Part shown: positions 19,704 to 45,799 of the stretch, piece after piece | How the letters are laid out: every line of letters starts with the position of its first letter | Numbering within the stretch: position 1 is the stretch's first letter | Source: Roseburia intestinalis L1-82 | GTDB taxonomy: Bacteria; Bacillota; Clostridia; Lachnospirales; Lachnospiraceae | Assembly (NCBI RefSeq): GCF_900537995.1 | Contig: NZ_LR027880.1 | Coordinates: forward strand, 4,429,349 to 4,493,348 | Length of the DNA stretch: 64,000 nt | Reading direction: 5' to 3' | Position numbers and translations under genes: made by a program | Notes under the pieces: generated by a model | The model's database searches: none | Seen by the model: the letters and a program-made list of their open reading frames with translations, nothing else | What the model was told of the DNA's origin: nothing

Positions 19704-19744
19704 TGTTCCCTGCGGGAATCGAACCCTCAACTAGTGCTTAGGAG
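19704..19744 (-). repeat. tRNA-Arg(CCU) 3'-half remnant / attachment-site copy 1
   Basis: On the reverse strand this reads from the anticodon loop CTCCTAA through a T-arm GGTTCGATTCCC to the acceptor end AGGGAAC. The 5' half is absent; sequence left of the anticodon (right in window coordinates) does not pair. Its anticodon stem (GCACT) differs from the intact tRNA (GACTC), so it comes from a different allele. The break point is the TTAGGAG core shared with the other copies. Confidence 0.7.
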
Positions 19745-19960
19745 CTCGAATCCACCTTGGAAACATATATAATTCTAAGTTAATCCAAGTCAAGGAAAGC
19801 CTTGATTTTTCTAACTATTCTGTAATTCCATGTCAAAATAAGAAAACTTAAAATCGTCTGAGAAAAATGGTTTTCGCTGTCAAACCGCTGACATTGTCAC
19901 CCTGAGGGTTCAGCCATTCCGTTCCAGCGGATTCATATATATGGCTACCATTCCAACATC
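19745..19960. repeat. island flank repeat, copy 1 (matches 23148-23370)
   Basis: About 215 bases next to the tRNA remnant match the flank at 23148-23370 with scattered changes, for example CCATGTCAAAATAAGAAAAC and GACATTGTCACCCTGAGGGT in both. It has no open frame of note and probably is the conserved end of related integrative elements. Confidence 0.7.
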
Positions 19961-20055
19961 ATCAATATTTTCCGTAAGTTCTCCTCCACCGACATACATT
20001 CTTCCAAGACCGCATAAAATTTTATCAGAACATGTATAAAAATGACCTGTAAGTG

Positions 20056-20238
20056 ACATTGATTCAGAACCGTCTTGAGTACACTGTCAAAGTTGATGAC
20101 AACACATCTGAGAACCTGCAGTCCGCTGAATCCCGTATCCGTGATACTGATATGGCAGATGAGATGACAAGATTCTCGAAAGAGAGCATCTTGCAGCAGG
20201 CAGCTACTTCCATGCTTGCTCAGGCAGAGGATGAATAA
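20056..20238 (+). pseudogene. flagellin C-terminal fragment
   Basis: The frame reads [20 protein letters not shown], then [14 protein letters not shown] and ends [11 protein letters not shown], which is the conserved flagellin C-terminal D0/D1 helix. The long N-terminal and variable parts are missing, so this is the tail of a flagellin gene cut by island insertion or deletion. It indicates that the chromosome or the element donor came from a flagellated lineage. Confidence 0.8.
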
Positions 20239-20254
20239 ATTCTTCTTTTTCCCT

Positions 20255-20282
20255 TTGCAAACCCCCCATTTTCCTGTATGAT
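20255..20282 (+). promoter_or_regulatory. probable promoter of the GH43 gene
   Basis: TTGCAA (20255-20260), a 16-base spacer and TATGAT (20277-20282) stand about 35 bases before the GH43 start. Confidence 0.55.
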
Positions 20283-20315
20283 AGAGATAGATTAACAATA
20301 AGGAGGCATACAGTT

Positions 20316-21938
20316 ATGTTGCAGATTAAAAATCCGGTTTTGCCGGGATTTAATGCAGATCCATCCATTATCCGTGTGGATGATACATATTACATTGCGA
20401 ACTCTACGTTTGAGTGGTTTCCGGGAGTTCGTCTGCACGAGTCAAAAGATTTAGTACATTGGAATCTTCTTCCATCCGCATTGTCCACGACGACATTGCT
20501 TGATATGAAAGGAAATCCGTCATCGGGAGGTATCTGGGCGCCGGATCTTTCCTATGCAGATGGAAAATTCTGGCTGATTTATACGGATGTAAAAGTAACC
20601 GAAGGACCGTTCAAAGATATGATCAATTATCTGACGACGGCAGAAGATATCCGCGGACCATGGTCGGATCCGATCCGTGTCAATGGTGTGGGATTTGACG
20701 CATCGTTGTTCCATGATGATGACGGACGCAAATACCTTGTTCAGCAGACATGGGATCATCGCGAATACCACCATGCTTTTGACGGTATTACAGTGACAGA
20801 ATTTGACACAGATACAATGAAATTAAAACCGGAGACAGCACGTACGATCTACGCCGGAACGGACGTTAAACTGGTTGAGGGACCACATTTGTATAAGATC
20901 AACGGATATTATTATCTGTTTGCTGCACAGGGTGGAACCGTTTGGACACATCAGGAAGTAGTAGCTCGTTCAAAGACGTTAGATGCGTTGAGTTTTGAGA
21001 CAGAGCCTGGCGATCCGTTTATTACAAACTTTGATACGCCGGAACTTGAGATCCAGAAGCAGGGACATGGTGCTCTCGTAGAGACTCCCGGCGGTGAGTG
21101 GTATTATGCAAGTTTGTGTGGAAGACCGTGGAACCACGAAAATGAAAGTTCGATCGACCCACGCGGCTGGTGTCCGCTTGGCCGTGAGACGGCAATTCAG
21201 AAAGTATACTGGGATGAAGAAGGCTGGCCGCGTATCGAGGGCGGACATGGCGGAAAAGTGCTTGTGGATGCACCGAAAGATGCAATCTTGACAGAAGCAC
21301 CGGCAGATCATTCGATGCATGATGAATTTGACACACCAAAACTTCATGATGAGTGGAATACCCTCCGCGTACCATTTACCGAGGAAATGGGTACGACAGG
21401 GGATGGCAGGCTGACATTGGTCGGAAAAGGATCCCTCAGCAATAAGCATGAGCTTTCGTTGGTGGCTAAACGCTGGCAGGCATTTAACTTTGATGCCGAA
21501 GTGAAAGTGAAATTTGATCCGTTCAACTATCAGCAGATGGCTGGATTGACAAATTTTTACAATGATAAGCACTGGTCATTCGCTTTCGTTACGTGGAATG
21601 AGAAAAATGGCCGCGTGATCGAAGTGGCAGAGTGCAATCGTGGCGGCTATCGTTCGTTCCTTCGCGACGATGCGATTCCTGTACCGGATGATGTTGAATT
21701 TGTATGGCTTCGCACAAAAGTAAGAAAGCAGTCTTACAGCTACGAGTATTCCTTTGACGGAAAGAACTATACAGAGATTCCGGGCACACTAGATGCCGCT
21801 GTATTGTCCGATGATTACGTACTCCAGTCATACGGTGGATTCTTCACCGGAGCATTTGTCGGCATGGCATGCGTGGACTACTCCGGATACGATCAGACAG
21901 CAGAATTCCGCAGTTTTGACTATAAAGAACTGGATTAA
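20316..21938 (+). CDS. xynB: beta-xylosidase, GH43 (xylan 1,4-beta-xylosidase type)
   Basis: This 540-residue enzyme starts MLQIKNPVLPGFNADPSIIR. The catalytic base is Asp15, the pKa-modulating Asp128 is in NGVGFDASLF, and the general acid Glu188 is in LVEGPHLYK. The C-terminal 200 residues form the beta-sandwich typical of GH43 xylosidases (DEFDTPKLHDEWNTLR onward). It removes xylose from the ends of xylo-oligosaccharides in the cytoplasm; no signal peptide is seen. AAGGAGG lies nine bases upstream of the start. It has its own promoter and is cut off from the LacI-type locus by remnants, so it may be a core gene trapped in the island or cargo. Confidence 0.9.
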   Translation: MLQIKNPVLPGFNADPSIIRVDDTYYIANSTFEWFPGVRLHESKDLVHWNLLPSALSTTTLLDMKGNPSSGGIWAPDLSYADGKFWLIYTDVKVTEGPFKDMINYLTTAEDIRGPWSDPIRVNGVGFDASLFHDDDGRKYLVQQTWDHREYHHAFDGITVTEFDTDTMKLKPETARTIYAGTDVKLVEGPHLYKINGYYYLFAAQGGTVWTHQEVVARSKTLDALSFETEPGDPFITNFDTPELEIQKQGHGALVETPGGEWYYASLCGRPWNHENESSIDPRGWCPLGRETAIQKVYWDEEGWPRIEGGHGGKVLVDAPKDAILTEAPADHSMHDEFDTPKLHDEWNTLRVPFTEEMGTTGDGRLTLVGKGSLSNKHELSLVAKRWQAFNFDAEVKVKFDPFNYQQMAGLTNFYNDKHWSFAFVTWNEKNGRVIEVAECNRGGYRSFLRDDAIPVPDDVEFVWLRTKVRKQSYSYEYSFDGKNYTEIPGTLDAAVLSDDYVLQSYGGFFTGAFVGMACVDYSGYDQTAEFRSFDYKELD

Positions 21939-21958
21939 TCAATAGCAAGAGCCTTTTT

Positions 21959-22192
21959 TTAACCAGGCTCAATCAGATGGCTGGCGATGCCGCAGAGGAT
22001 TCCGGGAAAAAGGACGAAAAGTCCGGGAACCAGGAAGACGATGAGGCAGGCGCCGGCCATTGTAAATAATAAGATGAAATTTTCTTTGATGTGACCTGCC
22101 ATCAGGCGCACGGAGAGCAGAAGAACTGCCGGAAATGAAGCGCGCAGGTGTGAGATCACGGCAAAGATATAATTGGCGAGAACCCAGAGGAC
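21959..22192 (-). pseudogene. C-terminal fragment of a multi-pass membrane protein
   Basis: The frame contains hydrophobic segments FPAVLLLSVRLMAGHI and LIVFLVPGLFVLFPGILCGI and runs upstream without a start codon until it meets the truncated parA start near 22193. It looks like the last 75-80 residues of a polytopic membrane protein fused by deletion to element sequence. A DUF624-like identity is possible because such genes often neighbour xylosidases, but I cannot establish it. Confidence 0.4.
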
Positions 22193-22215
22193 GAGACTGC
22201 TATTACTTTACACAT
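22193..22215 (-). pseudogene. parA remnant (first codons only)
   Basis: The reverse strand reads MCKVIAVS, identical to the start of the ParA protein at 43550, then breaks off before the Walker A motif. It lies directly behind the internally deleted parB, in the same order as the intact pair at 42741-44425. Confidence 0.65.
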
Positions 22216-22229
22216 AATCCTTTTCTCCT

Positions 22230-22814
22230 TTACGCATCCCAATATTTTTTCATATTTAATTTCAACATTTCCAATATTTCCCGCCTCATTTGCTCTGCTG
22301 TATAAGTGACTGGGAAAAATCTGTGAAGCTGAACCTGTTTTGGACTGTCCCCACATTCCTCTCCGATCAGCTCAATACTCTTCTTTCCTAAATTATGGTC
22401 CACCTGACCACATTTTCTTCTTCCGGCTTTTCGTTTGATTGCTTCGTACTTCATCTTATAAGCAAATGCTTTTTCACTTGGGCTGATCATTTCTCTTTGT
22501 AGGTTTGAATCAACCATTAATACAACAGCTTCATCATCTTTAAGGACTCGTATTATCACAGGAACCCTTCTATATCCTATTTTCTCAGCAGCAAATTTTC
22601 TTCGGTGCCCGGATATAATCTCATAACATCCATCTTTCTTCGGTCTTACTATTAAAGGATTTAAGATACCATACTTTTTGATACTCTCCTGTAATTCAAT
22701 CATCTGGCTGTCTGCCCTGACCTTGAATGGATGATTTTCAAATCCTCTCAATCTTTCCAGCTCAATCTCAACTACTTTTTCATCTTCTTCCAATAATTCT
22801 GTTTTTTCTGCCAT
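22230..22814 (-). pseudogene. ParB-family partition protein with internal deletion
   Basis: The first 150 residues match the ParB at 43568-44425 closely: ENHPFKVRADSQMIELQESI, EIISGHRRKFAAEKIGYRRV and NLQREMISPSEKAFAYKMKY. After GDSPKQVQ the sequence jumps in frame to LHRFFPVTYTAEQMRREILE, which matches the last 30 residues of the intact protein. About 90 residues, including the second half of the helix-turn-helix region, are missing. The product may fold partly but should not bind its centromere normally. The ATG at 22814 is preferred by analogy with 44425. Confidence 0.75.
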
Positions 22815-22838
22815 AGGCAACTTTCTTTCCCTGAACGT

Positions 22839-22885
22839 AAAAAAGCCCGTCCAGAATAGATTGTTATTATCTAATCTGAACGGAC
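22839..22885 (-). terminator. terminator-like hairpin in parB leader (copy 1)
   Basis: On the reverse strand GTCCGTTCAGATTAGAT pairs with ATCTATTCTGGACGGGC, followed by TTTTTT, about 25 bases before the parB start. The position between promoter side and start codon suggests an attenuator. Homologous hairpins stand at 39804 and 44450. Confidence 0.7.
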
Positions 22886-23062
22886 TCTTCCGACAGGACT
22901 TATACCAGGCAAGAAAATAGTGTTACTTTTACTCTGATTTACACCCCAATTCTTATCCTACATTGTGCCTTATCTCTCCGTGTGACGATCTGAAAAATAA
23001 ATCCTGATGACAAGATTTCATTTTCGCTGACAAATTTGCCATCAAAATCAAAAAAAAGCATG

Positions 23063-23097
23063 AAAAAAGCGGCAATGATTTTGTCTTCATTACCGCT
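23063..23097 (-). terminator. terminator behind tRNA 3'-half remnant (second copy)
   Basis: AGCGGTAATGA pairs with TCATTGCCGCT on the reverse strand, followed by TTTTTT. It is nearly identical to the hairpin at 40071 and related to that behind the intact tRNA. Confidence 0.75.
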
Positions 23098-23106
23098 AAA
23101 AATGAG

Positions 23107-23147
23107 CGTCTCCTATAGGAATCGAACCTACAATAGAGTCTTAGGAG
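23107..23147 (-). repeat. tRNA-Arg(CCU) 3'-half remnant / attachment-site copy 2
   Basis: The reverse strand runs from CTCCTAA through the anticodon-stem strand GACTC, T-arm GTAGGTTCGATTCCTAT and acceptor strand AGGAGAC. The acceptor differs from the intact tRNA (AGGGAAC) but is perfectly complementary to the GTCTCCT of the displaced 5' half at 44987-45024. The core TTAGGAG is at 23141-23147. Confidence 0.8.
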
Positions 23148-23450
23148 TTCAAGTCCCCGTTGGAAACTTATATTATTTTGAGTTAAGATAAGTCAATGAA
23201 ATCATTGATTTTTCTACCCTTCCTGTAAATCCATGTCAAAATAAGAAAACTGAAAATCATCTAAGTTAAGCACCTCTCGCTGACAAATGAGTGACATTGT
23301 CACCCTGAGGGTTCAACCATTCCGTTCCTACGAATTCATATTTATGGCTACCATTCTCATTTAGCAATGCAGTAATGATAACACTGTTTTCTTATTAGAT
23401 TACTTATATTATAACGTGTACGAGGTCGGATGTCGATTGTTTTTTGACCA
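23148..23450. repeat. island flank repeat, copy 2
   Basis: Positions 23148-23370 match 19745-19960. Positions 23394-23450 contain AGGTCGGATGTCGAT and a TTTTTGACC tract also found at 40402-40456. No gene is visible; this is the conserved element end between the attachment site and the integrase side. Confidence 0.65.
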
Positions 23451-23669
23451 TTATTTACTTCTATTTGCTTTAACTATAAAAGCCGTAAGCTAATGCTCCC
23501 AGCTTTACATTTTTTTATTCCATCAGTTTTACAAACTTGAATTTATATAATTATTCCTCTAACTTTCCCTATTTTACAGGCTTTCCCGCCTGTTCATTAG
23601 TGAAATGATATGTAGTTTCCCTTATTTTTGCCCTTATGAGATAATCACAAGGGAAATAAGGGAAATTTT

Positions 23670-24965
23670 TTAGTCATTGCCTACCACTTTATCAAGAAGC
23701 CGAACCGATTTTCGTTTCGCATCTCTTGTGGAGTGAGCATAGACGTTCATTGTGGTACTGACATCTGAGTGTCCCAACAATTCCTGTACATCTTTTGGGG
23801 CTGCTCCATTTGCTAAAAGGTTGCTTGTATAGGTGTGACGTAACTGGTGGAAATGAAAGCCTTCAAATCCCTCTAATGCTTTTGCCACCTTTCTGCATAC
23901 CGTCCCCAAAGTAGTCGGAAGTTCCAGACAACCATCCGGTCTTAAGCAGACAAAAGAAATTTCTTTATAATCTGCCGGGACTTCCTGCGTTCTGTCTAAG
24001 CAATAATATTCGTAGTACACTCTGTTTTTCTCTTTGACCTCTTTGTAGTAGTTCGTGTGATAAAGTTCTTCGTACTGCATTCGATTTTTTAACTGCTCTT
24101 TCCGGGCATTACGGAAAATCTCTACCAGTGTATCTCCAAAATCAACAACCCTTACTTTTTTCCGCTTGGTTGGTCCGATGATATATTTGCGCTTTGAGCC
24201 ATCATATCGGATGCTGCGTCTTATGGTAAGGCATTGTTCTTCCAGATTTACGTCCTGCCATGCCAAACCACAGGCTTCTCCAATACGAAGCCCGGCATAA
24301 TAGGCTATCTGGATTGGAAGTATTGCGGCTGGGTTCTTTTTTTGCAGATAAGCAAGCAGTCTTTCATAATCTTCTCGTGAAATTGGTTGGACATTTCCGT
24401 CCATATCCTCATCAGAAAACAAATCCACTTCATCCGTCTGATACCGCAGTTTAATATACTGCATAGGATTGAACGTAATATACTGCTTTGGAAATACTGC
24501 AAAGCGGAATGATTGCTGCATGACTGCGGAAAAAGAATGGATGTAATCTTTGCTGTAACCCTTTCTCTCTTTTCCATCGGGATGAACTCCCCCGAAGGAA
24601 AGCAAATCGAAGAAAGATTGCAAATGTTCAGAGGTTACATTTTTCAGTTTACGTTCTGCCAATGGGTGTTTCTTAATATTTCGGATTGTTCCGAGGTAAT
24701 TCTCCACCGTACCATTGCTGAGCGTACCTGTTTTTAATTCCTCCTCTGCCCACACATCCAAAAGCTGTCCGACTGTGAGATTATCCGCTTTGGCAACAAA
24801 TTTCTTTTTCTCATAATCATCCATTGCCTGACGGAGCAGTTTTTCAGTTTCACTTTTGCTTTCTGTTCCAACGCATTCTTTCTGAACAAGATTGCCGCTT
24901 GCGTCCTCTACATAGAAGCGGTAGTACCATTTCTTTCCTTTTTTTCTTACAGATCCTTTTGCCAT
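23670..24965 (-). CDS. int: tyrosine recombinase / integrase (Tn916 Int type)
   Basis: This protein of about 431 residues has an N-terminal arm-binding domain (MAKGSVRKKGKKWYYRFYVE), a SAM-like core-binding domain (TVGQLLDVWAEEELKTGTLS) and a catalytic domain. The catalytic domain has Arg in GLRIGEACGLAW, HxxR in HFHQLRHTYTSN, His in LGHSDVSTTM and the nucleophile Tyr in NVYAHS. All catalytic residues are present. The start at 24965 has GGAG ten bases upstream; an earlier ATG at 24995 precedes that ribosome site. It lies about 520 bases from the tRNA-derived attachment remnant at 23107 and close to the CACAAGGGAAA repeat, the usual integrase-next-to-att layout. Confidence 0.92.
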   Translation of the reverse strand: MAKGSVRKKGKKWYYRFYVEDASGNLVQKECVGTESKSETEKLLRQAMDDYEKKKFVAKADNLTVGQLLDVWAEEELKTGTLSNGTVENYLGTIRNIKKHPLAERKLKNVTSEHLQSFFDLLSFGGVHPDGKERKGYSKDYIHSFSAVMQQSFRFAVFPKQYITFNPMQYIKLRYQTDEVDLFSDEDMDGNVQPISREDYERLLAYLQKKNPAAILPIQIAYYAGLRIGEACGLAWQDVNLEEQCLTIRRSIRYDGSKRKYIIGPTKRKKVRVVDFGDTLVEIFRNARKEQLKNRMQYEELYHTNYYKEVKEKNRVYYEYYCLDRTQEVPADYKEISFVCLRPDGCLELPTTLGTVCRKVAKALEGFEGFHFHQLRHTYTSNLLANGAAPKDVQELLGHSDVSTTMNVYAHSTRDAKRKSVRLLDKVVGND

Positions 24966-25051
24966 AATCGTATGTCTCCTTTCGATATTAGACAATCGGA
25001 ACTGATGAAATGCTTCGTGCGTGTAAGTATATCATAACTCCGGTTGTCTTA

Positions 25052-25681
25052 CTATACCGATTCGGAATCTTCGTATAAGACTTCTGATAAAAGATTTGCA
25101 AGCCTTTGTTCTGCTGTTTTTGGTTTCTTGGAATAGAGCCTTACAATGTCTGCCATCTCATTAAAAGCATTGATGGTATGAGTGATTTCCCTTAAGAACA
25201 TAATCTCATTATATTCCTCATTCGATTCAAACCCTATTGTTTTGGCAATATCCGTCTGACCAGCATTTCCCTTGAAGTTTTTGCAGGCGAACTGGAAGGA
25301 ATCCAAAAACAGACCATATTGTTTTAACATCAGCAGTAATAAATCTTTTGAAAAAGCATCTTCTTCTTTGGTAAGGGCAAGCGGTAACTGTTCCAGAATA
25401 TCTCCCATCGCATCACGAATCTGTAATTCTCTCTTATCCGTAATGTCGGTTTCATATTCATCTGTTTCCCCTTTGAGCCATTCCACAGATACATGGAGTG
25501 CTTCCGAAAGACCTTCCAGCACCATTTTTTTCGTATTGTCAATCGAACCATTCTCATAACGCAGGATTGTAGAAGCGGTAACTCCCATCTTCTCTGCGAC
25601 ATAAGGCTGTGTCAGATTCAATTCCAGACGGCGCTGTTTTATTCTGCTGCCTATCAACTTGCGTAATTCTTTATCTTTCAT
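25052..25681 (-). CDS. XRE-family transcriptional regulator
   Basis: The N-terminal helix-turn-helix reads LIGSRIKQRRLELNLTQPYV and TASTILRYENGS. The remaining 130 residues are helical and probably mediate dimerisation or sensing. The start at 25681 has AAGGAGG eight bases upstream, whereas the longer frame to 25768 lacks a site. It is divergent from the xis-like gene at 25853, and the gap holds two copies of a TTGCAxxATGCAA palindrome, so it likely represses both itself and the element's excision/mobilisation genes. Confidence 0.85.
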   Translation of the reverse strand: MKDKELRKLIGSRIKQRRLELNLTQPYVAEKMGVTASTILRYENGSIDNTKKMVLEGLSEALHVSVEWLKGETDEYETDITDKRELQIRDAMGDILEQLPLALTKEEDAFSKDLLLLMLKQYGLFLDSFQFACKNFKGNAGQTDIAKTIGFESNEEYNEIMFLREITHTINAFNEMADIVRLYSKKPKTAEQRLANLLSEVLYEDSESV

Positions 25682-25734
25682 GCTGACTGCCTCCTTTTTC
25701 GGTATGTATGAATTATAGCATTGTTTTTCCGAAA

Positions 25735-25833
25735 TTGCAATATGCAATGCAATATTTATTTTTAACATTTCGTAACGCTTGACAAAAAGATGTGAAAAGG
25801 ATATACTTACATCACAGGAATTGCATAATGCAA
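25735..25833. promoter_or_regulatory. divergent control region with two palindromic operators and xis promoter
   Basis: TTGCAATATGCAA (25735-25747) and TTGCATAATGCAA (25821-25833) are matching palindromes. Between them a strong rightward promoter reads TTGACA (25779-25784), 17 bases, TATACT (25802-25807). This is a typical switch between an XRE repressor and an excision gene. Confidence 0.75.
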
Positions 25834-25852
25834 TTTATAAGGAGGTGATTAT

Positions 25853-26083
25853 ATGACGCAAAGAAAAATTGCATTATCCATCGAAGAAGCTGCCGACTAT
25901 ACGGGAATCGGCAGAAACACCTTAAGACAGCTTGTAGAATGGAAGAAACTTCCGGTATTAAAGGTTGGTCGTAAAGTCCTGATTAAAACCGATATTCTGG
26001 AAATGTTTATGGAAGCGAATGAAGGTCGTGATTTGAGGGATAGAGGAAATGTAAAAGCCGTAACAAGAACTGCGGCAAATTAA
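25853..26083 (+). CDS. xis: excisionase-family DNA-binding protein
   Basis: The 76-residue protein has a winged helix-turn-helix of the MerR/excisionase kind: LSIEEAADYTGIGRNTLRQL, then LPVLKVGRKVLIKTDILEMF. Small proteins of this family act with a tyrosine integrase as directionality factors or regulators. GGAGGTGATTAT lies directly before the start. It is divergent from the XRE regulator and is the first gene in the rightward transcribed part of the element. Confidence 0.85.
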   Translation: MTQRKIALSIEEAADYTGIGRNTLRQLVEWKKLPVLKVGRKVLIKTDILEMFMEANEGRDLRDRGNVKAVTRTAAN

Positions 26084-26223
26084 AAAGGCGGCTTCCCAAG
26101 AAACCGCCAAAGGTTCTATCAGACCGAAGCCATGATATACCTACACGCAAGAAGATTATACCATGTGCTTCTTCTGATACGCAACCAAGAACTTATGTTT
26201 GTGAAGGAAAGGAGAATGTAAGA

Positions 26224-26538: not shown

Positions 26539-26585
26539 TGGCGGAGGGGATGAGTTTTTCATTCCCTTCATTGCTTTTTCATGAA

Positions 26586-29358: not shown

Positions 29359-29380
29359 AAAGTGTCAGGGAGGTATCTCT

Positions 29381-37817: not shown

Positions 37818-37866
37818 TTTTTGGGGGCTTCCTTTCTTGTTTACTCCACCGATCAACGGCTCAATA

Positions 37867-38625: not shown

Positions 38626-38641
38626 AATTTCATCACCCCTT

Positions 38642-38894: not shown

Positions 38895-39017
38895 CCTGTA
38901 AACCGGTTGATAGTGGTTCACGCTTCATTTTTTTGAAAACTGCTTGCTTAGAAACACCGATTTACAGACTTCTCGTATATATATTTTACCACATAATTTT
39001 TCCAAAACACAGATTTC

Positions 39018-39269: not shown

Positions 39270-39402
39270 GTTAAAACCTCCCTACATTATATACATGGCG
39301 CTTCTCGACAAATTCTTACAAATAACTACAAATTTTTTCACAAGAAACGGAAAAACGATACTGCATAGATTTCCTACTCCACACAATATCGTTCTTCTAT
39401 AT

Positions 39403-39628
39403 TTATACTTTCATTGTCTTTGCCAATGATGTAAGCAACGCCACCATCTCCGGATTCCCCAGCACTTTCATCAGCAGCTCTGCATCCACTCCATCCGGCA
39501 CCGTAATTGTACTACTGCCTTCATCCTGTTCTTTCATTTGTGGATTAAGATTTTCCTTATTATAAAAGGCATTCTCCATAAGTTCTGCATTCTTCCTTCG
39601 GTCTTCATCAAGGATATCAGAGGATTTA
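39403..39628 (-). pseudogene. 3' remnant of an unidentified gene fused to truncated parB
   Basis: In a frame different from parB the reverse strand reads SSDILDEDRRKNAELMENAF, then TITVPDGVDAELLMKVLGNP and ends LTSLAKTMKV. It has no start codon and begins exactly where parB similarity stops, so a deletion has joined two genes. The composition looks coding, but I do not recognise the protein. Confidence 0.5.
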
Positions 39629-39779
39629 ATATTCCATACTTCTTAATACTCTCCTGCAATTCAATCATCTGACTGTCCGCCTGAACCTTGAATGGATGGT
39701 TTACAAATCCCCGAAGTCTTTCCAGCTCAATCTCTACAACTCTTTCATCCTGATCCAGCAATTCCTTCTTTTCTTCCAT
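39615..39779 (-). pseudogene. ParB N-terminal fragment (third parB copy)
   Basis: About 55 residues (RVVEIELERLRGFVNHPFKV, SQMIELQESIKKYGILNPLI) match the N-terminus of the ParB proteins at 22230 and 43568. After NPLI the frame runs into unrelated sequence. The leader with its terminator-like hairpin is retained. Confidence 0.75.
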
Positions 39780-39803
39780 AGGCAACTTCCTTTCTCTGAA
39801 CGC

Positions 39804-39850
39804 AAAAAAGCCCGTCCAGAATAGATTGTATTTATCTAATCTGAGCGGAC
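39804..39850 (-). terminator. terminator-like hairpin in parB leader (copy 2)
   Basis: It has the same structure and nearly the same sequence as 22839-22885: GTCCGCTCAGATTAGAT pairs with ATCTATTCTGGACGGGC, then TTTTTT, just before a parB start. Conservation with compensating differences between copies suggests that the structure matters. Confidence 0.7.
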
Positions 39851-40070
39851 TCTTCCGACAGGCCTGATATCACAGACAAGAATATAGTGTTTTGTTTCAC
39901 TGCTTTTCCTAATTTTACACCCTAAAACTCATCCTACACTGTAGTTAATCCCTCTGGGTGACGGCTAGGAAAGTGTGAATTGGTGACAAGCATCCATCCC
40001 CGCTGACAAAATCAGTATTTTCAGCCTTGTTTCGCTGACAAATTTGTCACTGAAATTACAATTCTGCATG

Positions 40071-40105
40071 AAAAAAGCGGCAATGAAACTATCTTCATTA
40101 CCGCT
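40071..40105 (-). terminator. terminator behind tRNA 3'-half remnant (third copy)
   Basis: AGCGGTAATGAAG pairs with a TTTCATTGCCGCT arm on the reverse strand, followed by TTTTTT. It matches the hairpin at 23063. Confidence 0.75.
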
Positions 40106-40114
40106 AAAAATGAG

Positions 40115-40155
40115 CGTCTCCTATAGGAATCGAACCTACAATAGAGTCTTAGGAG
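40115..40155 (-). repeat. tRNA-Arg(CCU) 3'-half remnant / attachment-site copy 3
   Basis: It is identical to the copy at 23107-23147 over the tRNA part, with acceptor strand AGGAGAC complementary to the displaced GTCTCCT 5' half at 44987-45024. Beyond the core (40149-40155) the sequence diverges from copy 2, which marks the junction with the next layer. Confidence 0.8.
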
Positions 40156-40487
40156 TTCAAGTTACCTTAGTTCCCACATGTTACCTGATGTCAACCAAAG
40201 TCAGTATTTATCAGGAAAGTAGGCACTTAATTGAAAATCCTTGTCAATATAAATTAACAGGTATAATCCCATTTTTGATATTCACTGTTAGCAGTTTGTT
40301 AGAAATGCTAACGCGTGGGATTAACCACTGTGTGCATTAAAATCCATAAACATGACCATCATTCCCCTGTTACTGACGGTAATGACTGATCAATATTTCT
40401 ATTAGATTACTTACATTATATCGTGTGAAAGGTCGGATGTCGATAAGTTTTTGACCTTTTTTACTTATATTTACTCAGAGTTTCCTG
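40156..40487. repeat. gene-free element flank with shared terminal repeat
   Basis: No gene is seen. Positions 40402-40456 match 23394-23450 (TATTAGATTACTTA, then AGGTCGGATGTCGAT and TTTTTGACC), placing the same element end at a similar distance from the attachment remnant. The rest is unassigned. Confidence 0.5.
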
Positions 40488-40660
40488 CTAATCCTTTAAT
40501 TCTCTTTCTATTTCTTCTATTGTTGGCATTGAACTCTTATAATCCTCCGGAATCAAATTATTTAATTCGTACTCAGATATTCCTACTGGCACATTTACCA
40601 TACTTGTTGCATACTGTGCCAATACATTGTCCTTTGTTTTACAAATTAGCAATCCAATGG
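40488..40660 (-). pseudogene. C-terminal fragment of a DUF1016/YhcG-type PDDEXK nuclease
   Basis: The reverse strand reads TIGLLICKTKDNVLAQYATS, then VPVGISEYELNNLIPEDYKS and ends IEEIERELKD. This is the closing part of DUF1016 (YhcG-like) PDDEXK nuclease-domain proteins, found with restriction and defence loci. The N-terminal helical domain and nuclease core are missing. It joins directly to the end of the YARHG lipoprotein gene at 40661. Confidence 0.65.
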
Positions 40661-42313
40661 TTAAGGTCTATTCTCATAGCTTATGATTAACTCTAGGTTA
40701 GCTTTCTCATAATCATTCAAAACATCATCACTGAAATTATCTGGTTCAATAGTGCCATTATACCAACTGCAAGAATTGAAATATTCTTGTAAAAATTCAT
40801 CGTTGAATTTGCGCCCATGGCGAGCATAGATTTCATTTCTAGCAATTTTGCAATCCTCTTTAGAGAAGGATTCTAAATCAGCATCGGTTAAATATCTGAC
40901 ATTGCTGTCTGGACATTTATACTCATTGGAATCATAAAAATTATTTTGTACATCTAAAGCATCAAACACATAATCTATGGAGTCATAGACTGGTATTGAT
41001 GTCCAATTATCCGTTCTCCAAGAGTCATAAATCTCATCATATTCCTCTTTCGTGATTTCATTTCTTAAACGGAAATAACTGTGGATGTAATCTTCCGCAG
41101 AAAAAGTCGTTCCATCCATAATACTGTCAATTACTTCCATTTTGTTTTCTTCAAACGACCAGACATCATACCAATCGCAAAACCCTCCCGTACCATCGTG
41201 GTATCCACAGAAACAGAGTTTTTCGAGTGTCTCGCTATAATAAGGCTCATAACTATCTACAACACCAAATGAAGAAAGATAATCCCGTATTGTATGCGGA
41301 ATTTCTACGATTTCTTGATCAATTATACGATATACTGAGATTTTGTTTAAACTGCTCCATTTATCTTGCATAAATAACTCCGGCACGCCATTACCTGTGA
41401 CATCCCATAAAAAATAATTCTTATTATTTTGTACCAAACCAGAACTGCCTAGATATGTGTTGCCATTATCTTCCAATATGTTGTCGAATAAAAAATCGAT
41501 ATACAATTTTTTCCAGGAGTCTTCTTCCAACTTAAAATAATCATTGGCAACTTCTTCAGTATCAAAGATGTACATCGTATTAAATGTATATCCGCCAAAG
41601 ATGCTTTCCGGATTGATCGTCGCCTCTATTATGAAACTATTCATTTCGGTATCCGTTTCTGACATCCCGTCGGGCTCGTATTCAATCTTACCAATAATAC
41701 GCACGGACGTGTCGGTGACCTGTTCAATTTCATCAACTTCAATATGTTCGATATCATAATTTTCGTCTTCCCAAGCAGCAACGTATGTCGCCATATCATC
41801 GTCATCATTTGCATCATATTCATCATAGTTACCGGTATCTGCTCCATACCATGCTATGAGCTGGTCGGCGTATTCGGGCGTCATTGTCCCAGCCCTGTAC
41901 GATCCACCGTCACCTAAAATGATGTCGTGAAAAGTTATGTCCTCCTTGACATCTTCATAAAAGATGTTCTGCGGTTCGGTTTCGAAGTTGTCAATGTCAG
42001 AGTAGGATAGGAAATATGCCATTGGGAAACTGGAAATATCCACCTTGTGCGTGTACCCGTCATGGTCGACGGACATTCTCACGACCTGGCATATTTTCTT
42101 GAGGTTTATATCCGTCTCATTGATTTGTATTGGATATTTCGGTTGGGTTATGTCTGCGGCCTCTTCTGTAGTTTTCGAGGTTTCTAACTCTTCGGTCTCC
42201 GAAATGCTTTCAGTTGTTTTGATGCCATCGCTTTCCTTGTAGCCGAATGAGCAGGCATTAGACAAAATACAGATTATGGTGCATACACATATAGATAGTA
42301 CCTTTCTTTTCAT
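40661..42313 (-). CDS. lipoprotein with C-terminal YARHG domain
   Basis: The 550-residue protein has a lipoprotein signal MKRKVLSICVCTIICILSNA with Cys21. A Ser/Thr/Glu-rich linker follows, and the long acidic domain has an integrin-like FLWDVTGNGVPELFM stretch near 310. A YARHG domain (ARNEIYARHGRKFNDEFLQE) lies near 500-535. YARHG proteins are surface-anchored in Firmicutes and their role is poorly known. A good promoter stands at 42387. The last residues end at the junction with the DUF1016 fragment, so the natural C-terminus may have been altered. Confidence 0.8.
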   Translation of the reverse strand: MKRKVLSICVCTIICILSNACSFGYKESDGIKTTESISETEELETSKTTEEAADITQPKYPIQINETDINLKKICQVVRMSVDHDGYTHKVDISSFPMAYFLSYSDIDNFETEPQNIFYEDVKEDITFHDIILGDGGSYRAGTMTPEYADQLIAWYGADTGNYDEYDANDDDDMATYVAAWEDENYDIEHIEVDEIEQVTDTSVRIIGKIEYEPDGMSETDTEMNSFIIEATINPESIFGGYTFNTMYIFDTEEVANDYFKLEEDSWKKLYIDFLFDNILEDNGNTYLGSSGLVQNNKNYFLWDVTGNGVPELFMQDKWSSLNKISVYRIIDQEIVEIPHTIRDYLSSFGVVDSYEPYYSETLEKLCFCGYHDGTGGFCDWYDVWSFEENKMEVIDSIMDGTTFSAEDYIHSYFRLRNEITKEEYDEIYDSWRTDNWTSIPVYDSIDYVFDALDVQNNFYDSNEYKCPDSNVRYLTDADLESFSKEDCKIARNEIYARHGRKFNDEFLQEYFNSCSWYNGTIEPDNFSDDVLNDYEKANLELIISYENRP

Positions 42314-42386
42314 TATGTTTTTGTTTTCTCCTAATTTCTCGGTTGTTATGCTGCTTTAAACACATCAATGCACTTATAATGTAAAA

Positions 42387-42416
42387 ATAGTATCATCCAT
42401 ACCATAGCGGTGTCAA
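42387..42416 (-). promoter_or_regulatory. promoter of the YARHG lipoprotein gene
   Basis: Reverse strand: TTGACA (42411-42416), an 18-base spacer and TACTAT (42387-42392), about 75 bases before the start codon. Confidence 0.6.
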
Positions 42417-42740
42417 GGTTATTTGAATACCCCATATACGAAAAAAGTGAGGACTTCTCCCACCTCGAAAGAAATCCCCACTTTCATTGACCACATTGGG
42501 GTCAGGCACCAATGTGCTCATTGTATTGACCTATTTAAATTATACAGGAAGCTCCAATTATTTACATTATAACACACGTAGGTATATTCAAACAATACCA
42601 GAATAATAGTACGATATTCAACCTAAAATTTCATTTTTGGCTTTTGTGCAGTTTACGGCATCCAGCGGTCGTCATTCTGTTTTAGAACGGCCGTTTCCCG
42701 AAGCCAACGGCCGCCCATTTTTTAGTTAGAAGATTACCGC
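42417..42740. other. gene-free stretch behind the parA chimera
   Basis: I see no gene here. An inverted repeat AACGGCCG/CGGCCGTT (42687-42713) downstream of the ParA-IstB chimera may be the relic of an IS21-type end or a hairpin terminator without a U-run. Confidence 0.35.
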
Positions 42741-43550
42741 TTATCGTGTGTTAATCTTAATCGTGTAGTGTTTTGTAGCTCTCTTCATAATGGAATTGGC
42801 AGATACCTCATCGTTGAGGATCATCGCTTTCCAGTTATCCGGATCACGCTGTGAGCATACGATGGTGCTTTTTCTCTGCTCGTTCCGCTTCTCCAGAAGC
42901 TCAAAGAGGATTTTAATCTCTCTTTCGTCAGTGATTGTGTGGAGCAGGAAATCATCCAGGATGATCAGTTCCCATTTGAGATACTTCTTCATCTTACGGG
43001 CATATTTATCGTAATCCTGCTCTTTAAGAGCTACTCTTCCTATTGTTTTGATCAGCTGCTGTAATCCTTTGACCGGAAGATATGCAGCCTGCACCGGTAT
43101 CAATACGGAATCTGCACATGCCAATGCGTTAATTGTCATCATTCCAAGAGACGGCATACAGTCAATAATTATGAAATCATAGAAATCTCTCAGTTTTTCT
43201 ACCATAGATCTAAGTATCAGTTCCCTGCTCATTGCATTCACCAGAGATACCTCAATAGCTGACAATTCAATATTTGCCGGTATCAGGTCCACACCTTCCT
43301 TATGATGAAGGATCGTTTTTTCAATATTCATTTTTTCATCATTCACAATATTCATCATCAGAGTTGCCAGGGAATACTCCATTTCATCCGGCTCCTCATA
43401 TCCAAGGCTGATTGTCAGACTTCCCTGTGGATCTCCGTCTATCAGCAGAACTTTCTTTCCTTCCTGAGCCAGACCTATCCCCAGGTTCACACATGATACG
43501 GTCTTTCCGACTCCACCTTTTTGATTTGATACTGCAATAACCTTACACAT
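42741..43550 (-). CDS. chimeric ParA-IstB protein
   Basis: Residues 1-172 are a ParA/Soj ATPase: deviant Walker A KGGVGKT at 11-17, Walker A' LLIDGDPQGSLT, Walker B IIIDCMPSLG, then VLIPVQAAYLPVKGLQQLI. From about 173 the sequence changes to the C-terminal half of an IS21-family IstB helper ATPase. That part has YLKWELIILDDFLLHTITDE, LLEKRNEQRKSTIVCSQRDP and ANSIMKRATKHYTIKI. The frame is continuous. The ParA part lacks the last 80-90 residues normally needed for DNA binding and dimer stability. It follows parB (43568) by 17 bases. It may be a relic of IS21 insertion and deletion or a working fusion. Confidence 0.8.
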   Translation of the reverse strand: MCKVIAVSNQKGGVGKTVSCVNLGIGLAQEGKKVLLIDGDPQGSLTISLGYEEPDEMEYSLATLMMNIVNDEKMNIEKTILHHKEGVDLIPANIELSAIEVSLVNAMSRELILRSMVEKLRDFYDFIIIDCMPSLGMMTINALACADSVLIPVQAAYLPVKGLQQLIKTIGRVALKEQDYDKYARKMKKYLKWELIILDDFLLHTITDEREIKILFELLEKRNEQRKSTIVCSQRDPDNWKAMILNDEVSANSIMKRATKHYTIKINTR

Positions 43551-43567
43551 AACATTTCCTCCTGTTT

Positions 43568-44425
43568 TTAATAATTCAGTACATACAATTTCAAAAGTTC
43601 AATTATTTCTCTCTTCATCTGTTCCGTAGAATAATTCTTTGGAAAGTACTTATGAAGCTGATCATTCTTAAACACTACCCGGTCCGTTTCTTTCTGCTTT
43701 ATCTCGCTTAAAATGTCTTCAACTCTCTGGGTTGTTAATTTTCCATCAGCACTCAGCTTTTTCATACGCATTGCCTGTGATAACGATGGCGTGCATAATG
43801 TTAATTCCATAGCATCAAGTATATCCTTTTGCTCTCTTTTCTTTAGATATGCAATCTGCACAGCTGGAGTAAATCCCATTGAACCATCATCTACCTTTTC
43901 CAACAGTTCAGGAATCAGATCAGCCATCTTGATGTATCTCTGTACCTGCTTAGGACTGTCTCCAGTTTCCTCACTGATAATCTCCAATCCCTTTTTTCCT
44001 GAATTGTGGTCAACTTGGCCAGCTTTCCTTCTTCCTGATTTTCTTTTGAGCACATCATATTTCATCTTATAGGCAAATGCTTTTTCACTCGGTTGGATTC
44101 TCTCTCTTTGCAAGTTTGAATCTACCATTGCGATAACTGCCTGATCATCTGTCATATAGCGGATTATCGTAGGTACTTTTCTATATCCCAGTTTTTCCGC
44201 AGCAAATATTCTTCTATGACCTGATATGATTTCGTAGTATCCTTCCTTTCGTGGTCTTACTATTACCGGAGTTATTATTCCGTATTTCTTGATACTGTCC
44301 TGAAGATCTTTCATCTGGCTATCCATTTCCACTCGAAACGGATGATTTTCAAATACTCTTAGCCGTTCAATCGCTATTTCAACGATTTTTTCATCTGGAT
44401 TCATCTGATCCACTTTTTCTGCCAT
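43568..44425 (-). CDS. parB: ParB-family partition protein of the mobile layer
   Basis: This protein of about 285 residues has the ParB N-terminal CTP-binding fold (ENHPFRVEMDSQMKDLQDSI, EIISGHRRIFAAEKLGYRKV, NLQRERIQPSEKAFAYKMKY). The helix-turn-helix is EIISEETGDSPKQVQRYIKM, and a C-terminal dimer region follows. It is the complete version of the damaged copies at 22230 and 39615 and is only distantly like the chromosomal ParB at 50162. The ATG at 44425 has AGGAGG six bases upstream, while the ATG at 44431 touches it. It lies directly behind the intact tRNA, with a terminator-like leader between. Confidence 0.85.
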   Translation of the reverse strand: MAEKVDQMNPDEKIVEIAIERLRVFENHPFRVEMDSQMKDLQDSIKKYGIITPVIVRPRKEGYYEIISGHRRIFAAEKLGYRKVPTIIRYMTDDQAVIAMVDSNLQRERIQPSEKAFAYKMKYDVLKRKSGRRKAGQVDHNSGKKGLEIISEETGDSPKQVQRYIKMADLIPELLEKVDDGSMGFTPAVQIAYLKKREQKDILDAMELTLCTPSLSQAMRMKKLSADGKLTTQRVEDILSEIKQKETDRVVFKNDQLHKYFPKNYSTEQMKREIIELLKLYVLNY

Positions 44426-44449
44426 AGGCATCCTCCTTCTTCCTGAAAT

Positions 44450-44492
44450 AAAAAAATCCGCCCAGATTAGAACCTAATCTAATCTGAACAGA
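44450..44492 (-). terminator. terminator-like hairpin in parB leader (copy 3)
   Basis: On the reverse strand TCTGTTCAGATTAGATTAG pairs with CTAATCTGGGCGGA, then TTTTTTT, 25 bases before the parB start. The sequence differs from copies 1 and 2 but the fold and place are kept. Confidence 0.7.
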
Positions 44493-44700
44493 ATACTCAT
44501 TCAGGCTTGATATTTTCCAAGCAGAAATATTTGTAATCATTACCCTTTTGTTAGTTACAAGAATTTACAACCTTTTACACCAGTTGCATTATAGCTTTTC
44601 ATTCCTGTTAGCAGATCCACAATAATTTTACTGTTAGCAATTTGCATTTTCTGTTAGCAAAAATGCTCATTTTTTGATTTGCTGTTAGCAGAAAAACAAC

Positions 44701-44734
44701 AAAAAAAACGGCAATGATTTTTCTCTCATTACCG
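44701..44734 (-). terminator. terminator of the tRNA-Arg gene
   Basis: CGGTAATGA pairs with TCATTGCCG, followed by eight U residues, 12 bases after the tRNA 3' end. Confidence 0.85.
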
Positions 44735-44746
44735 CTTAAAATAGAG

Positions 44747-44818
44747 CGTTCCCTATAGGAATCGAACCTACAATAGAGTCTTAGGAGGACCCCGTTATAT
44801 CCATTTAACTAAGGGAAC
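44747..44818 (-). tRNA. tRNA-Arg (anticodon CCU)
   Basis: The reverse strand folds as a full cloverleaf of 72 nucleotides without CCA. The acceptor GTTCCCT/AGGGAAC is perfect, the D stem is GTTA/TAAC, and the anticodon stem GGGTC/GACTC has loop CTCCTAA. The T stem GTAGG/CCTAT has loop TTCGATT, and the discriminator is G. Anticodon CCU decodes AGG. It has its own promoter at 44908 and terminator at 44701. The anticodon loop coincides with the TTAGGAG core found at every element junction in the island, so it is the integration site. Confidence 0.92.
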
Positions 44819-44907
44819 AAATGCCGTATTTTCGGGCTTTTCAGCCTTTTGGGCTCCGGCTGCCATGTTTATGAATCCAATCACTTGCGTGATGAATTGT
44901 CCCAGTT

Positions 44908-44936
44908 ATTATATATTGATTTTAGTCTTTTTGCAA
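44908..44936 (-). promoter_or_regulatory. promoter of the tRNA-Arg gene
   Basis: Reverse strand: TTGCAA (44931-44936), a 17-base spacer and TATAAT (44908-44913), about 90 bases before the tRNA. The same promoter is repeated in the third unit at about 45330-45358. Confidence 0.75.
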
Positions 44937-44986
44937 ACTCTAAAATCCTGTTATGTCTCACTAAATGGTCTGCACTTAGTTGCCCC

Positions 44987-45024
44987 TTAGGAGGACCCCG
45001 TTATATCCATTTAACTAAGGAGAC
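44987..45024 (-). repeat. displaced tRNA-Arg 5' half, allele GTCTCCT
   Basis: It reads GTCTCCTTAGTTAAATGG into the anticodon CTCCTAA on the reverse strand, with no 3' half attached. Its acceptor strand pairs perfectly with the AGGAGAC of the 3' halves at 23107 and 40115 but not with the intact tRNA. Confidence 0.85.
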
Positions 45025-45203
45025 AAATGCCGTATTTTCGGGCTTTTCAGCTCTTTTGGCTCCGGCTGCCATATCTATGAATTCAATCACTCTTGTGATG
45101 AATTTCCATTATATCTTATTTTGACATTCAGATCAATCCCTGTTGGAATCGAACTCTGACTTATCACTTCTCAACTTCCATAAGTCTCAACCATGATTGA
45201 ACC

Positions 45204-45241
45204 TTAGGAGGACCCCGTTATATCCATTTAACTAAGGGAAC
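45204..45241 (-). repeat. displaced tRNA-Arg 5' half, allele GTTCCCT
   Basis: It reads GTTCCCTTAGTTAAATGG into CTCCTAA on the reverse strand, identical to the 5' half of the intact tRNA, with no 3' half attached. Confidence 0.85.
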
Positions 45242-45410
45242 AAATGCCGTATTTTCGGGCTTTTCAGCCTTTTTGGCTCCGGCTGCCATGTTTATGAATC
45301 CAATCACTTGCGTGATGAATTGCTCCTGTTATTATATATTGATTTTAGCCTTTTTGCAAACTCTAAAATCCTGTTGCTTCTCACTAAATGGTCTGCACTT
45401 AGTTGCCCCC

Positions 45411-45799
45411 TTAGGAGAGCTCCAACCAATTGTCACTCTCTGTCAATCTGAGGTAAGGTAAACCCATATGGGACACTATTAAAAACTATTTCCGATTCAA
45501 TTTGAGTTATTCTGAATATCCCCTCTGTCAAGCTCTGAAAGTTAGCTGATTGTTTGCTCCAGCTAATAATTGGGGAATGCCTTGATATTACCATCGACAT
45601 CTGTTATATGACCACCATGCTTCGTACGTTCGATCATGGTAAACAGTATTCAATTAAACTTCCTATCGAAAGCACAAGATATTTTCTTGTCTATAAATAA
45701 TATAACGCATACGAGACGGTTTGTCCATGCGTTTTTGACTGGTAAATTGGTTAATTCAAAGTAGTAATAATATTATTATGGAAATCTGAAAATAATTTT
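45411..45799. other. gene-free junction at the right edge of the island
   Basis: After the last core (TTAGGAG at 45411) no tRNA half follows. Near 45690-45730 a tract ATAACGCATACGAGACGG and GTTTTTGACTGG resembles the terminal repeats at 23400 and 40420. A short coding-like run (MIERTKHGGHITDVDGNIKA, reverse strand near 45570-45640) is too short to name. Confidence 0.4.

Follow-up and report, generated by a model that had tools for sequence, protein, structure and literature searches.

ICEs, IMEs and integrase-less att-flanked islands (CIMEs) accrete in tandem at one site, usually head to tail at attL/attR. In tRNA-dependent lysogeny, as set out for actinobacteriophages in the available sections of Guerrero-Bustamante and Hatfull 2024 (PMC10865867), attB overlaps a tRNA gene at the anticodon region, a tyrosine integrase is used, the shared cores of 8, 10 and 11 bp do not rebuild the tRNA, and a need for the imported tRNA was shown. 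These sections also cite the non-actinobacterial Lactobacillus johnsonii prophage Lj965, which encodes a cognate tRNA and where the tRNA is likewise not rebuilt, and they state that the prevalence of this lysogeny beyond actinobacteriophages needs investigation and that its relation to the ordinary mode is not clear. Among the canonical islands of Islander, in the sections of PMC4383910 on their sites, the tRNA is restored at one junction and a single fragment is displaced (3′ in 3760 islands, 5′ in 159), tandems of at least three are rare (4 listed), and 2083 of 3919 islands are located at the anticodon loop, which goes against the first-pass annotation of the DNA studied here, where this loop had been called a less usual sublocation. 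The unusual feature of our locus is the displacement of both host halves, not the anticodon-loop location. A literature search, with subscription papers mostly outside its reach, found PMC10865867 and no report of clostridial stacks.

We analysed a stretch of 64 kb (the window, to which all positions refer) from a Roseburia-like bacterium. ARAGORN found a single tRNA in it, tRNA-Arg(CCU) at 44746-44818 on the minus strand, and a whole-genome pattern search gave four matches, with one complete tRNA-Arg(CCU) copy, at 44746..44818. The 8-bp core CTCCTAAG has seven copies in the window, all on the minus strand and all at the seven sites described below: one intact tRNA, two orphan 5′ halves, three orphan 3′ halves and one junction without a half, so that a 5′ or 3′ half flanks six of the seven cores and the core at 45411 has neither. 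The first-pass annotation had listed one intact tRNA, three 3′ halves and two extra 5′ halves sharing a core; ARAGORN and the core search confirmed this inventory, with coordinates accurate to 1-2 bases, and mapped the core as an 8-mer at exactly seven sites. The 7-mer CTCCTAA alone is not significant, since its 9 matches (6.7 expected by chance) were reached in 27 of 100 shuffles. The cores, halves and left-end units are as follows.

19705..19744, minus strand: outermost orphan 3′ half with core (core 19738; core search, stem pairing)
23108..23147, minus strand: orphan 3′ half with core (core 23141; core search, stem pairing)
40116..40155, minus strand: orphan 3′ half with core (core 40149; core search, stem pairing)
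44746..44818, minus strand: intact tRNA-Arg(CCU), innermost (ARAGORN; 12/12 acceptor and anticodon stem pairs counted)
44780..44787, minus strand: core CTCCTAAG within the intact tRNA, which would be a free target site (core search)
44788..44986, minus strand: left-end unit type A, with x′ arm, promoter-like pair 44936-44908, leader and 5′ half of the intact tRNA (sequence, promoter scan)
44994..45203, minus strand: left-end unit type B, with x′ arm, promoter-like pair 45136-45108, leader and orphan 5′ half 44994-45024 (unit comparison)
45211..45410, minus strand: left-end unit type A, with x′ arm, promoter-like pair 45359-45331, leader and orphan 5′ half 45211-45241 (unit comparison, promoter scan)
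45410..45417, minus strand: core CTCCTAAG at an element-to-element junction of x4 arm, core and x′A arm (core search, G035 comparison)

The core at 45411, previously described as bare, is instead such a junction, with the right end of an element carrying a Fic gene to its right; along 1.56 kb this end shares 84% DNA identity with the corresponding end of an element in the relative G035, and the two Fic proteins share 92% amino acid identity. The window between 19.5 and 47.0 kb holds three core-bounded bodies and the end of a fourth, with a fifth element likely; the sequence outside the outermost half looks like the left arms known from other elements and is thus perhaps this fifth element, truncated.

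19539..19704, minus strand: region beyond the outermost half, perhaps truncated fifth element E0 (matches G034:C10, L047, L048)
19745..23107, minus strand: E1 body (core-bounded)
20316-21938, plus strand: E1 GH43 glycosidase
22230-22820: E1 shortened parB
23148..40115, minus strand: E2 body (core-bounded)
23670-24995: E2 tyrosine recombinase (PF00589)
25052-25768: E2 HTH gene
26791-28587: E2 MobA/MobL relaxase
39409-39696: E2 second-integrase remnant with two stops
40156..44745, minus strand: E3 body (core-bounded)
40661-42313: E3 YARHG protein, then right arm x
42741-43550: E3 parA-like gene
43568-44431: E3 parB
44737-44706, minus strand: E3 terminator-like repeat (repeat/promoter scan of the window)
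45418..46958, minus strand: E4, truncated right end of a further element, with Fic/Doc-family gene 45800-46861 (DNA and protein comparison)

Further cargo of E2 comprises DUF6040, a two-component system, an ABC transporter and transposases. Tyrosine recombinases (Phage_integrase family, PF00589) were present in E2, in the elements of G075 and G082, in Catonella and in six further stretches, and no integrase was found in the bodies of E1 and E3 or in the G079c3 element. The elements did not have the character of temperate phages, with a relaxase in E2 and relaxases, TrbL and TraG-like proteins in Catonella's element; the 10 scanned window proteins matched integrase, Par/ParB-domain, DnaC-like and unknown families and no phage structural family. 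Related insertions elsewhere carry Thoeris and restriction-modification genes. The predicted attP of E2 (x at 23141 joined to x′ at 45204) reads TTGAAC-TCCTAAG-GTTCAA, and an actual junction of this form is present in Catonella morbi; a general inverted repeat around the core was rejected, such arms being clear for E2 and Catonella only.

Judged from sequence, this layout very probably arose from successive mobile elements, each with a complete tRNA-Arg(CCU) at its left end, that recombined into the anticodon loop of the resident tRNA. By comparison, an element runs from core through x′ arm, promoter-like site, leader, whole tRNA, cargo and x arm to core, and across genomes its tRNA halves match each other and not the halves outside. 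A tyrosine integrase would exchange strands in the 7-nt anticodon loop at the shared core, with the anticodon stem probably acting as its arm repeats; attP (x-core-x′) and attB would have just 8 bp in common, so that neither junction would make a tRNA. Of the host gene there would remain a 5′ half with its promoter and, far from it, a 3′ half, while the imported gene takes over. Carrying this core as well, the imported tRNA would offer the next element its target, and repeated rounds would nest 5′ halves to one side of it and 3′ halves to the other. An insertion that used an outer junction in place of the tRNA would produce an x-core-x′ junction such as 45410-45417, and integrase-less elements would have to rely on an integrase supplied in trans. 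One point against this reading is the tRNA-Arg(UCU) that the host's own genome also encodes: by wobble it might decode AGG, so that a need for the imported tRNA is not certain.

A pattern scan of genomes found the same layout in 34 contigs, mostly clostridial, a lower bound because the scan pattern was exact, and the loci are not independent since several are near-identical. One of these contigs is titled Patescibacteria, and at most loci besides the window the stretch contains just one orphan 5′ half. In evenly drawn genomes the pattern occurred in 3/397 of the family and 1/391 of the class (the window's own genome counted in), and viral contigs scanned with the junction and unit patterns gave no match. 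An element-borne tRNA-Arg (cct) was present in 14 of 15 scanned stretches and absent from L120, the distal part of G082. Complete insertions lie within one contig in G079c3 (4.95 kb), G075 (7.6 kb), G082 (23.3 kb) and G081c21 (10.2 kb); in the last, a tRNA-Arg(CCU) of visibly different type, adjoining a tyrosine integrase, sits between 5′ and 3′ halves that pair 12/12. A 7.8-kb 'phage' scaffold (L048) was rejected as an excised circle, its ends having no overlap; beyond its core lies an open frame, a transposase by eye.

Acceptor and anticodon stem pairs were counted at 36 loci (34 contigs, G035 and the window), of which 31 had the intact tRNA within the stretch. The intact tRNA's own halves paired 12/12 in 30 of these 31, the exception being L069/G076 with two mispairs (10/12). 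Repeated insertion of related elements into the predecessor's anticodon, as first proposed, is supported by the comparative evidence; it had been left open whether each element brings a half or a whole tRNA, and the evidence points to the whole. The outermost orphan 5′ half paired 12/12 with the inner tRNA's 3′ half at 12/31 loci and more poorly at 19/31, and its stems differed from those of the inner 5′ half at 20/31. An inner tRNA rebuilt with a host half therefore does not fit 19/31 loci, and the other 12, window included, are uninformative.

In seven cases that each have a single orphan 5′ half and a single distal 3′ half, hand-picked from 16 after the sequences were seen, the site is the anticodon loop of tRNA-Arg(CCU), attB thus overlapping a host tRNA gene, and the two halves paired with each other at 81 of 84 positions (permutation mean 64.3), a score reached by only the true pairing among 5,040 permutations. 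Excluded were G092 (no change between halves), G086, G076, G091, G088 and the window (more than one orphan on a side), G034 (without an orphan 5′ half), G035 (without a host 3′ half) and G081c10 (distal half shared with another case); for G084, G071 and G087 the two halves come from separate contigs of the same assembly. The best pairing in G086 and G076 was 11/12, and in G035, where the host 3′ half was not found, the 3′ half that is present makes 9/12 pairs with the orphan 5′ half. ARAGORN called a tRNA in 7/7 true joins of the flanks, but also in 26/42 cross-genome joins, and is thus non-discriminating, so the argument rests on stem pairing; on the 14 attL/attR stretches of the seven cases it called none.

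In the window, the orphan 5′ half 44994-45024 pairs 12/12 with the 3′ half at 40149 and equally 12/12 with that at 23141, and the orphan 5′ half 45211-45241 pairs 12/12 with the 3′ half of the intact tRNA and 11/12 with those at 40149 and 23141. The 11/12 between the 5′ half at 45204 and its nesting partner at 23141 counts against nesting, and the anticodon stem GCACT of the outermost 3′ half matches none of the remaining 5′ halves. With this 11/12 pairing and the outermost 5′ half missing, the insertion order in the window is partly lost; a deletion at the 45411 junction would also explain the absent half.

Compatible with nested whole-tRNA insertion, and held by us as a tentative addition to it, is a mixed mode in which elements with an internal core alternate between two kinds of circle: recombining at its outer ends, an element would give a tRNA-carrying circle (x-core-x′), and recombining between the internal tRNA core and the right end, a half-restoring circle (x-core-3′ half), the 5′ unit staying behind as a scar. 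The layout implies three co-directional cores in every element, and E2-type arms occur without 5′ units in G034 and with them in the window (right arm, 1 difference among the 45 bases printed; left arm, 96% over 222 bp). Scars of this kind would fit both L069, with its mispaired tRNA, and the extra 5′ unit of the single-contig genome G433, where two orphan 5′ halves face one orphan 3′ half by pattern. However, scars should often give hybrid tRNAs with mispaired stems, found in only 1 of 31 intact tRNAs, and loss of a unit by homologous recombination would look identical.

Far less probable is that each element is an ordinary half-restoring island bringing a 3′ half only (attP = x-core-3′ half), the 206-217 bp 5′ units having arisen by separate tandem duplication of promoter and 5′ half. 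Half-restoring layouts do exist, as in G016 and G034, where x arms occur together with orphan 3′ halves but no 5′ unit, and the G016 x arm ends ACTTGAA like that of E2; moreover, the window's type A units share 96% identity with each other and the two G433 units are 217/217 identical, so that duplication is possible in G433. It may also have occurred at L069, L084 and G088, where neighbouring units are each other's closest relatives. Unit B of the window, however, is 62% identical to the neighbouring type A and 89% to units of two other genomes (L073 and L077), and plain tandem duplication, named at the outset as what would refute serial insertion, was therefore rejected here; the same pattern recurs in G028 unit 2 (75-76% to its neighbours, 96% to L064). 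The differing stems of outermost and inner 5′ halves and the self-matched inner tRNAs also speak against this reading. Units identical over 216 bp adjoin different 5′ halves in L070, L071 and L083, and in G035 one type A unit, 96% identical to 44788..44986, has a different 5′ half next to it, and this half lies some 130 bp away from the chromosomal DUF3881 gene. For the comparison with relatives having an empty locus, proposed as a check, G016 is ruled out as an empty site because of a second 3′ half 40.5 kb away, and G015 is a plausible one, with one 3′ half by pattern (assembly 94% complete, contig ending 2 kb beyond).

Least probable of all is a retention of the 5′ units for a function as additional promoters or tRNA-half RNAs. 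This reading draws on the promoter-like pair and similar leader retained in all three window units, against which stand insignificant leader folds (z -0.8 to -1.6, a structured leader RNA being unsupported), an Rfam scan around the 5′ units with tRNA only above threshold, and the single orphan 5′ half of most other loci. A promoter copy had at first been noted in one 5′ unit; promoter-like pairs, as consensus matches, were found in all three, and since the scan counted 5 matches at 3 places where shuffled sequence gave 2.5 on average (sd 1.7), they are only suggestive.

Taken with nested whole-tRNA insertion, a broader picture, for and against which we see equal chances, is that of a self-renewing landing pad, in which each clostridial element would swap in its own tRNA-Arg(CCU) as the next target, a first-in, outermost stack of halves would record the arrivals, integrase-less defence and metabolic islands would ride along, and the internal core would serve as a one-step switch between tRNA-carrying and half-restoring forms. 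Which orphan halves were originally partners can be tested simply, by compensatory pairing in their stems, and past insertion order is thus partly readable from one genome. The loci indicate a route by which a bacterium's sole tRNA-Arg(CCU) gene becomes wholly element-borne, and island finders expecting one displaced fragment could miss or mis-bound such elements. They also bear on the questions raised in the available sections of PMC10865867, through non-phage clostridial elements, the occurrence of the two layouts within one genus on near-identical arms, and stacks.

Like the accretion of ICEs, IMEs and CIMEs, the present locus lines up several att-flanked elements at a single site, and some of them lack an integrase; unlike it, insertion falls inside the predecessor's own tRNA gene, so that the two sides mirror each other. 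Tyrosine integrase, anticodon-centred crossover and tandem arrays are shared with the islands of Islander as its consulted sections describe them (PMC4383910), whereas here the displacement affects both host halves, and the tRNA comes entirely with the element. The closest likeness in mechanism, to the extent covered by the available sections of PMC10865867, is to tRNA-dependent lysogeny, with its tyrosine integrase, attB in the anticodon region and short core (here 8 bp) that does not rebuild the tRNA; set against it, our elements are conjugative, mobilizable or integrase-less, or small cargo islands, in Clostridia, the tRNA is tRNA-Arg(CCU), and it lies about 220 bp or less from the attachment site. 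Lj965 is a single prophage, the passage on it describing no stacking, whereas stacks are found here. The imported tRNA as next target, on which those sections only speculate, for plasmids, is indicated here by natural stacks.

ARAGORN reported a single tRNA gene in the window, tRNA-Arg(CCU), whose anticodon loop is the 7-nt sequence CTCCTAA with the anticodon stem on both sides. This 7-mer had nine matches in the window vs 6.7 expected by chance; the 8-mer CTCCTAAG occurred exactly seven times, always on the minus strand, and these matches, with no others in the window, confirmed the seven sites at which the first-pass annotation had placed the core, the short sequence common to all split sites. 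A pattern search found four 3' halves in the genome, all within the window and one of them belonging to the intact gene, and all five tRNA-region similarity matches in the genome also fell inside it. We call x and x' the right and left element arms beside a core, and unit (type A or B) the element left end, made of x' arm, promoter-like site, leader and tRNA 5' half. In the tRNA sense, the array then starts with arm x4, core 45411, unit A, core 45204, unit B, core 44987 and a second unit A, continues with core 44781 (intact tRNA), body E3 and core 40149 with a 3' half, and ends with body E2, core 23141 with a 3' half, body E1 and core 19738 with a 3' half.

Intact tRNA and core-bounded element bodies of the window.
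44746-44818, minus strand: intact tRNA-Arg(CCU), from ARAGORN
E3, 4.6 kb: parB, parA-like gene, YARHG protein
E2, 17 kb: tyrosine recombinase, MobA/MobL relaxase, DUF6040, two-component system, ABC transporter, transposases
E1, 3.4 kb: shortened parB, GH43 glycosidase

If each element imports a whole tRNA-Arg(CCU) at its left end and inserts into the anticodon loop of the tRNA already there, both halves of the innermost gene should belong together. Scanning a species-genome collection for the pattern 5' half - unit - 5' half returned 34 contigs, with titles mostly Clostridia or Lachnospiraceae and one Patescibacteria, and stem pairing was counted at these plus two more loci (36 in total, 31 with the intact tRNA inside the stretch). 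The inner intact tRNA had 12/12 pairs in acceptor and anticodon stems at 30 of the 31 loci (mean 11.9), the remaining one being mispaired, while the outermost orphan 5' half paired with the inner 3' half at 12/12 in 12 loci and less well in 19 (mean 10.1). Given this poorer fit, the simplest reading for those 19 loci is that both halves of the inner tRNA arrived as one.

Orphan halves, in turn, fitted each other. In seven cases picked by hand, each having a single orphan 5' half and a single distal 3' half, 12, 12, 11, 12, 10, 12 and 12 of 12 pairs formed, and the sum of 81/84 was reached by the true assignment alone among 5,040 permutations. The tRNA lying between the paired orphan halves of contig G081c21 was of a visibly different type. 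At L127 19155-19411, a tRNA-Arg(CCU) of visibly different lineage was enclosed by host-type halves. For the window, nesting predicts that the 5' half GTCTCCT at 44987 belongs to the 3' half AGGAGAC at 40149; these formed 12/12 pairs, although the 3' half at 23141 fitted this 5' half equally, and the 5' half at 45204 formed 11/12 with that at 23141. No partner is left for the outermost 3' half (GCACT), and the outermost 5' half is gone. In the relative G035, a differing 5' half (stem GCCCC) was found some 130 bp away from DUF3881, a chromosomal gene, and was followed by one unit and an intact tRNA with stem GGGTC/GACTC; the host 3' half was looked for in this genome and not found. The empty-site comparison proposed in the first-pass annotation could thus be run inside single genomes, through orphan-half pairing, but no relative proved empty with certainty: G016 was rejected since it was occupied, and G015 is a plausible empty site.

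Tandem duplication of neighbouring units is possible in L069, L084 and G088, because neighbouring units there are mutually closest relatives, and would also suit G433, with its identical units and unequal numbers of 5' and 3' halves. The window carries its units in the order A, B, A. Identity is 96% between both A units, and equally 96% between these and the G035 unit; unit B shares 62% identity with A and 89% with the units of L073 and L077. Similarly, G028, of the same genus, has three orphan 5' halves, and its second unit is 75-76% identical to its neighbours and 96% to L064, and units identical across 216 bp adjoin differing 5' halves in L070, L071 and L083. The window array is most likely nested rather than duplicated. 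Two further arrays were seen: two consecutive units of just 104 bp, with x' arms unlike the Roseburia group (L147 3463-3671, from G091, same locus as L084), and three consecutive 5' halves accompanied by two mutually unrelated units (32% identity) and, at the contig end, an intact tRNA (L135 7673-8124, from G066).

Under nesting, an E2 circle would join x(23141) with x'(45204), reading TTGAAC-TCCTAAG-GTTCAA. A real x-core-x' junction, GGACTTGAACTCCTAAGGTTTAATC, was present in Catonella morbi between two core-bounded stretches, and arms x4 and x'A, joined at core 45411 in the window, are both ends of a single element in G035. Viral contigs gave no match to junction or unit. Between the integrases of E2 and Catonella, identity is just 22% over 233 residues. 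A T-loop-like stretch, GAGTTCGATT, lies in the type B x' arm at 45147-45156, about 50 bp from the core, and in type B units of Catonella and G433 as well; it may be a 3'-half relic or an integrase arm site.

An ordinary layout, orphan 3' halves without a 5' unit, was found in G016, where 40.5 kb separates the halves, and in G034. Near-identical arms occur in both layouts, since G034 arms match those of E2 (one difference in 45 bases compared between C10:13523 and the right arm; 96% identity over 222 bp between left arms) and of G433 (C10:16728, identical across 45 bases compared). An internal core would offer a putative one-step route between them.

NCBIfam matches of the E2 relaxase include MobQ, under its cut-off. 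The C-terminal part of another integrase also survives in E2, as a remnant interrupted by two stops. At 39409-39785, a short open frame starting like the parB of other elements runs into a Catonella-type integrase remnant, a sign of internal deletion in E2. E3 seems to have arisen by deletion and to carry a fused gene, because the ParA match of its parA-like protein (42741-43550) reaches only to about residue 173 and gives way to an IstB/DnaC-like stretch. No integrase was found in E1, E3 or the G079c3 element, and we infer that these moved in trans. Besides three bodies and one truncated end, the window likely holds a fifth, truncated element, because 19539-19744 is similar to left arms of elements in G034, L047 and L048. 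Right of core 45411, a Fic gene lies within 1.56 kb sharing 84% identity with the right end of an element in G035. Between two cores of G035, a stretch of 7.5 kb (L032 9162-16632) seems to hold a Fic gene, an integrase fragment and a riboflavin operon, its riboflavin genes recognized by eye.

Lachnospiraceae elements often have the tRNA first, then parB and parA: the intact tRNA is closely followed by parB in the window, G028, G063, G071, G076, G083, G084 and G088, and parA comes next in all of these except G084. In another clostridial group, the integrase directly adjoins the tRNA (e.g. G075, L061, L085). A 55-kb Catonella stretch appears to be a conjugative element that has a plasmid-like module for replication, because it additionally carries RepA_N, relaxases, TrbL, a TraG-like ATPase, NlpC/P60 and a tyrosine integrase; an intact EF-G-like gene inside it (C. 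morbi, L124 1323-3242) was judged by eye to be of ribosomal-protection type.

Cargo in relatives.
G082: Thoeris
G075: AlwI-type restriction-modification pair
G079c3: PDDEXK/Schlafen set

Chromosomal genes resume at 47551 (DUF3881, HD protein, Spo0J-like ParB), and this flank was matched in eight relatives (G013, G015, G016, G021, G027, G028, G034, G035). The Spo0J-like ParB gene (50162-51088) adjoins the tRNA locus, and the flank 47551-64000 was found next to the tRNA in relatives too. The chromosome record stops at the right edge of the window; with this end and the Spo0J-like gene close by, the locus is probably near oriC.

Since the genome also encodes tRNA-Arg(UCU), an imported tRNA-Arg(CCU) may be helpful rather than needed. 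Insertion into the anticodon loop, described in the first-pass annotation as less usual, proved common: the Islander paper (PMC4383910) gives it for 2083 of 3919 islands. The loci work much as in tRNA-dependent lysogeny (PMC10865867), a paper that speculates that a second plasmid might integrate into the tRNA of the first and calls for investigation of prevalence beyond actinobacteriophages. As described there, this lysogeny shares with the present loci an attB in a tRNA gene, a core near 10 bp in length, a tRNA that is not rebuilt and a cognate tRNA in the element; our loci are set apart by element type, host, isotype and, most of all, natural stacking.
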